Source: Oscillospiraceae bacterium (GTDB taxonomy: Bacteria; Bacillota; Clostridia; Oscillospirales; Ruminococcaceae). From it: a stretch of 60,072 nt of DNA. The notes under the pieces are model-generated. The model was not told the origin of the DNA. It saw nothing but the letters and a program-made list of their open reading frames with translations, and did not search any database. Shown here in pieces: positions 16,317 through 45,834 of the stretch; the stretch's first letter is position 1; the number at the start of each line of letters is the position of its first letter. Position numbers and translations under genes: made by a program. The DNA lies in contig JALEOL010000049.1 in NCBI GenBank assembly GCA_022766785.1, positions 1-60,072 of the forward strand. The letters are read 5' to 3'.

Positions 16317-16392
16317 TGGTGACTCATCCGGGAATCGAACCCGGGACACCCTGATTAAAAGTCAGGTGCTCTACCGCCTGAGCTAATGGGTC
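16317..16392 (-). tRNA. tRNA-Lys (anticodon TTT)
   Basis: The 76-nt cloverleaf includes an encoded CCA. The anticodon arm CCTGA-CTTTTAA-TCAGG gives TTT, and the T arm is CCGGG-TTCGATT-CCCGG. The D arm reads GCTC...GAGC. The acceptor stem GACCCAT/ATGAGTC has one C-A mismatch at positions 4 and 69. Discriminator is A. Confidence 0.95.
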
Positions 16393-16447: not shown

Positions 16448-16569
16448 GGGCTTTCGCTAAAAAAAGTGCGGTAATGCCTAAAGTTTGTTGAGAATTGGTA
16501 AAACATGTGTGCGCAATATGTGCATTTGTTAAAAATCACAAAAAAACGCGGATTTTTTGAAAAATACTA

Positions 16570-16598
16570 TTGACTTTTTATAATTCCTGTGGTAATAT
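16570..16598 (+). promoter_or_regulatory. Promoter of the ~600-nt non-coding RNA
   Basis: TTGACT (16570-16575) and TAATAT (16593-16598) are 17 bp apart. The predicted start is near 16604. The stretch 16448-16569 between the divergent promoters is AT-rich with no feature I can support. Confidence 0.75.
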
Positions 16599-16679
16599 AT
16601 AGTCAAGGAAAGGAAATCAGTACAAGCATCTGAGATGAAGTTTCACCTGACATTCAACCAAGTTCCTGACCTAATCTAC

Positions 16680-17154
16680 GAAAGAGGTAAACTCCGATGA
16701 ATTAAGTTCAAAGCTCAATTCAACAAGTATCGCGAAAGGAAAGTATCCCGATGCACCTCTGACAGAATTTTTCACCATTTTAGCTTTAAGCAGAAAGGAA
16801 GCGAGTCCAGTGGAATTTACGGATCCACAGTGTTCTTCATCTGCGGCTCGTGACAAGGGCTGAGGTATAATTTTCAGGCGACATGCCGCACAGGGTTCTG
16901 TCTGACCCATAAGGTGCAGGCGCTTCGCCAGACAGGGCGTTTAGCCTATTACAAAGCCCGCCCGGAAGCTCCGCAGATGATTTTTACCGCTATATGCGTT
17001 TACATAGATCACCCCATTCAGATCTTTTTGACCTAAAAGCAGGTGGTTCCGGTGAAACACATTATTGTAGCAGGAAAATCTATGAAAGGAACTTAGTCCG
17101 ATGGAAACCTGATCATTTGTTCCAACAAATCTTCTAAGGCGGTACATTCCAATG
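16680..17154 (+). repeat. Six copies of a 20-nt module inside the non-coding RNA
   Basis: Copies span 16680-16699, 16734-16753, 16793-16812, 17035-17054, 17084-17103 and 17135-17154. All are exactly 20 nt. Positions 2-3 are AA, 5 is G, 15-16 are CC and 19-20 are TG in all six; positions 17-18 are always purines. Most can fold as GGA/TCC mini-hairpins flanked by purine-rich GAAA and GATG sides. Confidence 0.75.
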
Positions 17155-17165
17155 AACCAGTAATT

Positions 17166-17204
17166 CAATACAAAACCCCTGCACAACGCAGGGGTTTTGT
17201 ATTG
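17166..17204 (+). terminator. Terminator of the non-coding RNA
   Basis: A perfect 17-bp inverted repeat (17166-17182 and 17188-17204) has a 5-nt loop ACAAC. The right arm contains GGGGTTTTG, so the U-tract is part of the stem. Confidence 0.85.
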
Positions 17205-17280
17205 AAATGATAAAATAATTAAAGGGCATCTCTAAATTGTGATTTAAAAGATTTATGATCAACTGATATCGGAGGGTAAT

Positions 17281-43809: not shown

Positions 43810-44072
43810 TGAATACGAAAAGCTGTGACAAGAAACAGTAAGCATTCCTGATATCCCAGAGAAACGGCGGTAGGTGCGAGCCGTTATTGATGAAATGCCG
43901 AACCCGTCTTTGAGCTGCGCCCGGAACCTGCATTTTGCAGAAGTAAGCGGTGCCGGTGCCTCCCGTTAGCGAGGAAGCGTTGTATGACGTGAAGTGCGGG
44001 ATCTTCCCGAATTCAGGTGGTAACACGGACTCTGTACAGTTCGCCCTGAGCAGAAATGCTCGGGGTTTTTTG
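43810..44072 (+). promoter_or_regulatory. T-box leader, proline specifier, upstream of proS
   Basis: A stem I AGAGAAACGG segment precedes the specifier segment GAA-CCC-G, with CCC (Pro) at 43903-43905. The T-box sequence CAGGTGGTAACACGG is near 44014-44028, with TGGT suited to an A73 tRNA. A terminator CCCTGAGCA / TGCTCGGGG with six T lies at 44044-44071. Uncharged tRNA-Pro should turn on proS. Confidence 0.9.
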
Positions 44073-44109
44073 TATTCTCGAGAAACAAATCATCGAAAGG
44101 AAGAAAAAC

Positions 44110-45834
44110 ATGAAACTTGAAAAGCTAGTAGGCGACCGCTTCAAGCAGCGCCCCTCCGACTGCCAGATCGACAGCCACGCCCTGATGATCCGCGGCGGCT
44201 ACATGAAGTACGTTGCAAACGGAATATTCTCCAGCTATATGCCGTTAAAGCGCATCACTAGGAAGATCGAGCAGATAATCCGCGAGGAAATGGACGCTAT
44301 TGACGGTCAGGAGGTAATGTTCCCGGTAGTTATGCCTGCGACACTGTGGGAGGAATCCGGCAGATACAGCAGCATCGGCAGCGAGCTGCTGCGCTTCACC
44401 GACCGCAACAAGGCGCAGATGGTTCTTGGCATGACCCATGAGGAAGCTGCCGTTCAGCTTGTGCGTGAATACGCAAACAGCTACACGAAATATCCGTTCA
44501 TGATCTACCAGATACAGACGAAATTCCGTGACGAAGCGCGCCCCAGGGGTGGTCTTATCCGCGTGCGCGAGTTCACCATGAAGGACGCGTACTCCTTCCA
44601 CACCTCGCAGGAGGATCTGGAGGAATACTACATGCGCTGCCATAAAGCATACGAGCGCATCTATGCCCGTGCAGGCATTCCCGAGGTCATCTCCGTCAAG
44701 TCCGACTCCGGCATGATGGGCGGCAGCGTTTCCCACGAGTTCATGCTGCTCACCCCTATCGGCGAGGACTCTATCGCAATTTGTAAGGAATGCGGCTTCC
44801 GTGCGAATATGGAGGCTGCGGAGAGCATTATTGAGAACACCCGCGACCCCGAGAGCCAGCCACTCACCGAGGTCTACACCCCGGACGTCCACACCATTGA
44901 GGACATCTGCAATTTCCTGAAAACCCCGACCGAAAAGAGCTGCAAGGCGGTGGTTTACCAGAGAAACCAGGACGACAGCTACGTTGTGGTATTTATCCGC
45001 GGCGACCTCGACATCAACGAGACTAAGCTGACGAACTACCTGGGCTGCGACATTCACCCGGCGGTAATTACCCCGGAATGCGGTCTGAACGCAGGATATA
45101 TCGGGCCTGTGGGACTTCCCGAGGGAATGACCGTGCTGTTCGACAAGTCCCTCCAGAACACCAACAACCTCTCCTGCGGCGCAAACAAGGAGGAATACCA
45201 CTTCACCGGGCTTGACATCAGCCGTGATGTCCCGGGAGCAGAGTACCACGATTTTGCGAAGATAATCGAGGGCGGTATCTGCCCCAAGTGCGGCAAAAAG
45301 CACATCACTATCTCCCGTGGCATTGAGGTCGGCAACATCTTCCAGCTCGGCACAAAGTACACCAAGAGCATGGGCATGACCTATCTCGACAAGGACGGCA
45401 ACGCCCAGACTCCGATCATGGGCTGCTATGGTATCGGCGTGGGCAGACTTGCGGCTTCTGTCTGCGAGGTACACCACGATGATTACGGCCCGATCTGGCC
45501 TATGGCTATCGCTCCGTGGCAGGTGCACCTCTGCGCTGTGCGTTCAGACGACGCCGAGGTCAAGGAAAAGGCTGACGCACTCTATGACGAGCTTCAGAAG
45601 CGCGGCGTTGAGGTGATCTATGACGACCGCTCCGTCAGCGCCGGAGTTATGTTCTCTGACGCAGACCTGCTGGGCGTTCCGCTGCGCGTTATCGTAAGCC
45701 CCCGTAACCTCAAGGACGGCGTTATCGAGATATCCGCCCGGGACAAGAGCTTCAGCGAAAAGCTCGCCCCTGCCGATGTCGCAGACAGAGTTCAGCAGAA
45801 GATCGCCGAAATGATGCAGTTCAACGTGGACTGA
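44110..45834 (+). CDS. proS: Prolyl-tRNA synthetase, bacterial type
   Basis: A 574-residue class II synthetase that charges tRNA-Pro. It has the bacterial layout: catalytic core with motif 2 FRDEARPRGGLIRVREFTMKDAYSFH, then an insertion (editing) domain around residues 225-400 that begins at DIC.FLKTP, motif 3 GCYGIGVGRL, and a C-terminal anticodon-binding domain. ATG 44110 follows AAAGGAAG; the longer frame from 44056 runs into the T-box terminator. The gene stands alone with a T-box before it and a terminator after it. Confidence 0.97.
   Translation: MKLEKLVGDRFKQRPSDCQIDSHALMIRGGYMKYVANGIFSSYMPLKRITRKIEQIIREEMDAIDGQEVMFPVVMPATLWEESGRYSSIGSELLRFTDRNKAQMVLGMTHEEAAVQLVREYANSYTKYPFMIYQIQTKFRDEARPRGGLIRVREFTMKDAYSFHTSQEDLEEYYMRCHKAYERIYARAGIPEVISVKSDSGMMGGSVSHEFMLLTPIGEDSIAICKECGFRANMEAAESIIENTRDPESQPLTEVYTPDVHTIEDICNFLKTPTEKSCKAVVYQRNQDDSYVVVFIRGDLDINETKLTNYLGCDIHPAVITPECGLNAGYIGPVGLPEGMTVLFDKSLQNTNNLSCGANKEEYHFTGLDISRDVPGAEYHDFAKIIEGGICPKCGKKHITISRGIEVGNIFQLGTKYTKSMGMTYLDKDGNAQTPIMGCYGIGVGRLAASVCEVHHDDYGPIWPMAIAPWQVHLCAVRSDDAEVKEKADALYDELQKRGVEVIYDDRSVSAGVMFSDADLLGVPLRVIVSPRNLKDGVIEISARDKSFSEKLAPADVADRVQQKIAEMMQFNVD

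Follow-up and report, generated by a model that had tools for sequence, protein, structure and literature searches.

The window that we analyzed, 60,072 nucleotides of contig JALEOL010000049.1 from an Oscillospiraceae bacterium, contains a stretch of about 600 nt in which no ordinary protein is encoded. A sequence-only reading had taken it for a discrete, large structured RNA gene and had proposed a ROOL/GOLLD-like identity, with a new large RNA class as the fallback. This raises the question of what kind of RNA is made here, and what it might do. The features that delimit the gene are as follows.

16317–16392, − strand: tRNA-Lys (ttt), a neighbor outside the RNA (tRNA annotation)
16570–16598, + strand: promoter-like site TTGACT-17-TAATAT (sequence pattern, 9/12 consensus positions)
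16604–17206, + strand: predicted transcript of ~600 nt (promoter and terminator; relatives aligned in alignment A1)
17164–17206, + strand: terminator with a 19-bp perfect stem (inverted repeat of 17164–17182 with 17188–17206)

The RNA gene at 16604–17206 is real, and the claim of a discrete structured RNA is borne out by the promoter-like site, the perfect terminator stem and folding that is better than that of 20 dinucleotide shuffles (z −3.9, with the terminator counted in). The promoter is present as claimed; an alternative promoter-like TTGAAA-16-TATAAT at 16557–16584 scores 11/12, and there are six promoter-like sites in 1.3 kb, compared to 2.9 in shuffles. The RNA starts with an SD-like CAAGGAAAGG. 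The terminator stem is 100% complementary, as the reading had stated, but is 19 bp long rather than 17 bp. Its inverted repeat is symmetrical, and the stem tail could serve the opposite strand too. Upstream of the RNA lie the tRNA-Lys on the opposite strand and a protein with BNR/Vps10-type repeats, and the neighbor on the 3′ side is a chromosomal repair gene whose product has NAD(P)H-hydrate dehydratase and YjeF domains. Elsewhere in the window, a T-box leader is located on the + strand at 43816–44051, with a long ORF (44056–45834) directly after it.

The repeated modules that the reading had mentioned are present as well, but what it overlooked is that they are Shine-Dalgarno (SD) sites ending in TCC-N-ATG, mostly with an in-frame stop. 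The statement that there is no plausible protein frame therefore holds for ordinary proteins only, since each such module is an SD, a start codon and an in-frame stop, kept across species.

Identity and distribution of the RNA

ROOL RNAs are phage and prophage encoded, often near tRNA islands, and their stems P1–P19 fold into a cage of eight chains (PMC12286853). The proposal that the RNA in the window belongs with ROOL, GOLLD or comparable ornate phage RNAs and would form a protein-free particle draws on its similar length, its structure and the nearby tRNA. The Rfam search that the reading had called for returned no match to ROOL, GOLLD, OLE or HEARO: the segment has no match at gathering scores, the four families are not among its matches even at E ≤ 10, and 19 relatives scanned at E ≤ 1 give tRNA, 6S and weak miscellaneous matches, with none of the four and no other ornate large RNA. 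The weak matches of the segment itself mostly sit on the terminator inverted repeat. OLE and HEARO were rejected for want of a match to their covariance models, and GOLLD for want of a match to the covariance model with its conserved 3′ domain. The phage collection holds no DNA similar to the RNA, and 13 IMG/VR contigs carry the central motif described below once each, a number not compared with chance, and none carries an array; together with the chromosomal 3′ neighbor, these results led us to reject a phage origin. Nor was a phage or prophage context at tRNA islands found: the proximity to tRNA-Lys holds in the window, but it is local, involving a single tRNA-Lys in the window and three relatives (L025–L027) only. 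The selected reading frames within the modules (see below) also speak against this identity. The likeness to ROOL and GOLLD is that of a large structured RNA; unlike them, it matches neither model, they are phage and prophage encoded, and no minigene array is described for them in the available part of PMC12286853. We consider membership in this group extremely improbable, and the fallback of a new large RNA class is supported. As far as Rfam and the literature searched go, the RNA is new, though it may be, unnamed, among the thousands of candidates reported in PMC8040213.

A plain DNA search across the family gave matches in 8 of 297 genomes, its own included. Among the seven others, L004–L007 are true relatives, whole RNAs of the same build, and L008–L010 were rejected, the central motif being absent. 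This motif, AAAGGRAGCGAGTCCRRTGGAA, occurs with ≤3 mismatches in 34 of the 43 genus genomes, compared to 4 for its reversed control. At the same threshold a family-wide pattern search marks 56 of 297 genomes, a figure that includes chance matches and is not used as a prevalence. A close form of the motif occurs in 41 stretches of the named genome collection, all from metagenome-assembled genomes; their titles read Oscillospiraceae, Ruminococcus, Ruminiclostridium, Clostridia and, once, Lachnospiraceae. The central motif with its codon-5 extension was looked for in a sample of 394 genomes of the order: 6 of the 42 genomes from this family have it, compared to 0 of the 352 from other families. 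The window's own copy, with its GTG start, falls outside this extended pattern.

The neighbor of the RNA in many other genera is a DUF1292 gene in back-to-back orientation. All 10 neighbor proteins tested are PF06949, a family that matches 126 of 127 genomes of the order, and 50 PF06949 loci were used for a motif-independent test in which modules were sought upstream of the gene, on its opposite strand. At least two modules are found at 6 of the 9 loci of this family; these six (L169, L170, L173–L176) belong to three genera, and none had previously been found there by motif. L177 and L178 have one central-type module each and correspond to RNAs already known. L172, from the window's own genome (contig C95), is a DUF1292 locus without modules, the RNA being at tRNA-Lys instead, as in L025–L027; the RNA gene seems to have moved in this lineage. 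At the DUF1292 loci of other families, 0 of 41 have two modules (one locus is cut at 1,043 bases), and single matches occur in 4 of the 41, each with 14 or more codons before a stop. The four pattern matches on the DUF1292 strand of L155, from another family, were rejected as an unrelated 143-nt tandem repeat. The lack of arrays at these loci supports the notion that, for modules of this form, the RNA is so far confined to one bacterial family. Near the DUF1292 gene and the RNA, 14 of the 19 relatives scanned (L004, L005, L006, L036 and others) have a 6S-like RNA, with two of the matches (L006, L036) passing the family threshold.

The repeated modules

The modules follow the form Shine-Dalgarno AAGGAGGTGAGTCC-N-ATG, with variation, and where the start codon is present it is mostly at a distance from the SD that is usual for initiation. 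Those in the window are listed here with their basis.

16680–16705, + strand: module 1, SD, TCC-N-ATG and mini-ORF ATG AAT TAA (sequence)
16734–16762, + strand: module 2, SD, TCCCG-ATG, one base more than the consensus, and mini-ORF ATG CAC CTC TGA, identical in L025–L027 (sequence)
16793–16863, + strand: module 3 (central), SD AAAGGAAGCGAGTCC and 17-codon ORF with its stop at 16861–16863; the start is GTG in the window and ATG in most relatives (sequence, relatives)
17036–17096, + strand: module 4, SD, TTCC-N-GTG and 14-codon ORF, its stop (17094–17096) immediately preceding the start of module 5 (sequence)
17084–17112, + strand: module 5, SD, GTCC-N-ATG and mini-ORF ATG GAA ACC TGA (sequence, relatives)
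17137–17163, + strand: module 6, SD, TTCC-N-ATG and mini-ORF ATG AAC CAG TAA, which is ATGTAA in most of the genus (sequence, relatives)

Of the loci found in pattern searches, the 55 with a TTGAC..TATAAT-like promoter followed by CAAGGAAAG were counted. False matches (e.g., L041–L046, L083), two Hsp20 leaders (L075, L082) and duplicates were left out, as were some probable members that lacked a promoter match or ran into a contig end (e.g., L060, L062, L072, L089). Rough dereplication by shared 12-mers gave 42 RNAs, with near pairs such as L065/L068 retained. These 42 RNAs (30,466 nt) contain 145 modules, compared to 1.9 (sd 1.6) in 20 shuffles.

The module definition includes GG, TCC and ATG; stops are not part of it. 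Yet in-frame stops follow the module starts, as ATGTAA, ATGAACTAA, ATGAACTAG, ATGAACTGA, ATGGGTTGCTGA, ATGGGTAGATAA, ATGGCTTGA and others; in close relatives the stop codon differs and still remains in frame (ATGAACTAA, ATGAACTAG and ATGAACTGA). An in-frame stop within two codons is seen in 76 of 108 distinct non-central modules; the other two frames have 14 and 22, and shuffling the downstream DNA 400 times yields 21.3 (sd 4.2, maximum 36). Within the genus the figure is 57/77 short modules (other frames 9 and 18), and in other genera 20/32 (other frames 5 and 4). Module sequences share descent and the trials are not independent, but the other frames serve as an equally related control, and by that measure a stop near an SD-led start occurs in frame beyond chance.

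The central module behaves differently. None of 36 has an in-frame stop in the first 12 codons (other frames 21/36 and 26/36), and 34 of 36 have one by codon 22 (other frames 28/36 and 30/36; shuffles 24.2, sd 2.9, maximum 32). The central ORF is 15–22 codons long in all but L054 (33 codons) and L032, which is cut by the contig end. As the loci were found via the SD and first codons of this module, those letters are no evidence, and it is the open stretch and the stop that count. The avoidance of stops in 36/36 cases, together with first residues that are alike across genera and mostly read M[ED]xxE, would fit a polycistronic mRNA for bioactive small peptides, above all a central M[ED]xxE peptide of 16–23 residues. 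Against this, species differ in the frame used for the latter half of the central peptide, with a stop still following, and most other modules encode 1–3 residues. We regard a peptide product as quite unlikely.

Neighboring modules also tend to be set apart by a similar distance. Among successive-module distances in 46 RNAs, 61 of 144 fall at 46–62 nt, compared to 12.6 (sd 3.3, maximum 23) for random placement, and only 5 of 144 at 20–45 nt; the count includes start-less sites, and related RNAs are counted together. When SD-GA[GT]TCC sites are collected regardless of the start codon (n = 108), 78 have ATG, 7 have GTG and 23 have neither. Two of these 23 look like spacing exceptions or accident, and ∼21 look real. 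Start-less SD + GAGTCC sites (L064, L073, L169, L175 and others) often have TTAAG, TTTAG or CTTAG within ∼15 nt. The retention of SD and TCC at start-less sites could mean that the modules bind some other factor, starts and stops being by-products of a conserved RNA motif, and we know of no role for TCC in initiation. The stops, however, come at differing codons by module and species and are nevertheless in frame, while the other two frames are without pattern, which makes a different ligand very unlikely. Taken as a whole, we are confident that the minigene array is real and selected.

The modules may also be compared with the 3′ tail of 16S rRNA. In the one relative in which the 16S end was read (L195) it is GGCTGGATCACCTCCTTTCT, and the module consensus resembles the complement of GGCTGGATCACCTCCTTTCT plus one extra G. 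The usual end, TTGGATCACCTCCTTT, was found in only 1 of 7 genomes, and a T/C difference accounts for this in the single genome whose 16S end was read. An end altered so as to fit the module perfectly was sought and rejected (0/10 genomes). With the tail as read, 140 modules have a predicted duplex energy of −14.7 kcal/mol; masking TCC changes the value to −10.8, and 630 other 24-mers from these RNAs give −8.3. Ordinary window genes (31) average −9.9, with a 16S tail that differs by one base, and module SDs are normal to strong in predicted pairing. Since TCC defined the set, it is only a suggestion that TCC adds pairing to the 16S tail. None of the 31 window genes has TCC at the module position, SD energy without fixed spacing separated starts only partly, and a module-internal hairpin is weak (−2.3 vs −1.8 kcal/mol shuffled). 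GGN7TCCNATG was rejected as a general start signature of the genome, with 58 places vs 66 for the reversed control.

The structured core

Between and overlapping the modules is a core with the following elements.

16837–16846, + strand: 5′ strand of the long-range helix, within the module 3 ORF (complementarity, covariation test)
16971–16980, + strand: 3′ strand of the long-range helix (complementarity, covariation test)
16888–16917, + strand: hairpin GCAC..GTGC (the matching hairpin covaries among relatives)
16996–17009, + strand: conserved GCGTTTACATAGAT (alignment; predicted weak pairing with AAGCG of module 3)

The 10-bp long-range helix of the sequence-only reading was found, its position being one base off the one given there. 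The reading had suggested that covariation of its helices be examined among homologues, and both-side changes are indeed above shuffles among 26 relatives. Alignments A1 and A2 each rest on 26 sequences of the genus, and the test used the core alignment A2 and covered three helices with 20 pairs in all. Two of the 26 tested sequences had served for drawing the structure, which favors it somewhat. Paired cells amount to 87.8%, vs 81.3 shuffled. Both sides change in 12 of 20 pairs (8.0 shuffled) and in 58 cells; shuffling gives 25.2 (sd 5.6) such cells and sliding 3–14. In further pair types these 26 sequences do not exceed the shuffles (23 vs 23.9). In the long-range helix, 6 of 10 pairs are invariant and 3 have changes on both sides; the three outermost pairs are those that change on both sides in some sequences, and the two outermost form in about half of the sequences. 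The GCAC..GTGC hairpin has two of its outer pairs mismatched in the window copy, and the predicted GCGTTTACATAGAT/AAGCG pairs hardly vary among relatives. Two core helices covary, as expected of a structured RNA.

The location of one helix strand within the central ORF brings up the possibility of a translation sensor, in which ribosomes on the central 15–22 codon ORF would melt the 5′ strand of the long helix, the RNA thereby reading out translation activity as a two-state switch. In its favor, the ORF covers that strand and ends soon after, and its length is kept while its peptide is not. Modules of 0–2 codons would be left unexplained, however, and there is no candidate for a downstream gene or other output, such that we consider this reading improbable.

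Proposed ribosome docking and its alternatives

As the repeated modules combine a landing site for ribosomes with start and stop codons, the RNA probably binds ribosomes, and for many SD-start-stop sites at a set pitch the simplest use would be to have ribosomes on the RNA without translating it. We tentatively take as our first choice, at somewhat less than even confidence, that ribosomes dock on the RNA and are kept busy there with futile starts and stops. The stand-alone RNA gene would be a rack of ribosome landing sites on which 30S subunits, and then 70S ribosomes with initiator tRNA, load at several modules of one RNA. Loaded ribosomes would run futile start-stop rounds or pause at start-stop codons, and any on the central ORF would unwind the long helix as well. 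In this manner the RNA could sequester, in trans, some of the cell's ribosomes, initiator tRNA and short peptidyl-tRNAs, comparable to what 6S RNA does with RNA polymerase. That a trans-acting RNA of this kind parks several ribosomes at a pitch of ∼53 nt, as a 6S counterpart setting the number of ribosomes free for mRNA, is conceivable but doubtful, and we are just as hesitant about the part of the same reading by which such parking minigenes are modeled on the complement of the 16S tail. The likeness to 6S RNA is a functional analogy only, in that an RNA acting in trans would imitate the template used by a central machine; the machine is a different one and there is no sequence relation.

Minigenes of two to six codons are known from leaders, lambda bar being one of them. 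Others are those of axe-txe, ycbK and LEE4, and strong-SD two-codon minigenes can deplete tRNA and slow growth, the UAA-ending ones most (PMC8708949). Like these, the modules described here have an SD, a start and an almost immediate stop, with ribosome occupancy mattering over the peptide. Leader minigenes, as far as PMC8708949 describes them, number one or two in a given leader and affect the following gene in cis, whereas here 1–8 are detected per RNA, with their own promoter and terminator and no conserved downstream gene. GOLLD has been reported to bind ribosomes in pull-downs (PMC12286853), and ribosome contact by a large RNA is therefore not without parallel. We found no description of a minigene-array RNA in the open-licence literature searched, and to our knowledge the minigene array as a stand-alone RNA is without precedent.

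Several observations speak against docking and a sink. Some sites are start-less, the starts of modules 1 and 2 are lost in some species (L018, L020, L038, L040), and some RNAs have a single module under the strict definition (three RNAs, with L007 and L070 among those listed). A trans effect is further opposed by the minigenes in the available text of PMC8708949, which act in cis only. The start-less sites speak instead for protection in cis, a close second that we hold possible though uncertain. Here the core would have the real job, ribosomes on the landing sites would shield untranslated RNA from decay, and quick stops would keep them out of the folded core. In Bacilli, a ribosome binding site near the 5′ end stabilizes long downstream RNA, also when untranslated (PMC3997798), and in E. 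coli the SD of a mini-ORF is protective for a leader (cited in PMC8708949); the RNA here starts with the SD-like sequence noted above and has core helices that covary. The resemblance to STAB-SD or ribosome-protected leaders of Bacilli lies in an SD that may hold a ribosome on hardly translated RNA, but those leaders, as presented in the available part of PMC3997798, have a single site near the mRNA 5′ end, with no array and no stops. Indeed, for protection one site near the 5′ end should suffice, while the modules are distributed along the RNA, a few of them directly ahead of the terminator. An additional reason would also be required for in-frame stops and a set spacing. The trans sink stays our first choice.

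Bacterial RNAs are filed as coding or non-coding, and this RNA seems to be selected for many ribosome starts while encoding almost nothing. If ribosomes dock, it would represent a new control of the free-ribosome pool, or protection of a long RNA, and a natural system for testing the effects of tandem minigenes. Reading-frame filters can hide a class of RNA genes.

Finally, related sequences occur elsewhere in the family. Hsp20 (PF00011) leaders in two genomes have one module each with a mini-ORF (L075:2251–2332 and L082:2117–2234; mini-ORFs ATGGAATCGAATGAATTTTAA and ATGGAAAAGTAA), the module being downstream of a TTAGCACTC-type repeat. Most of these RNAs also share ACAATTGAATA (AAATTGAATA), which the window's own copy lacks; it is located in A1 columns 970–985, at the 3′ end of the genus RNAs, and inside the RNA in L058, L066 and L169. 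A relative carries the same ACAATTGAATA ahead of its 23S rRNA gene and the reverse complement behind that gene (L195, L201), and in six genomes AAATTGAATA occurs at 57 places, compared to 25 for the reversed control.
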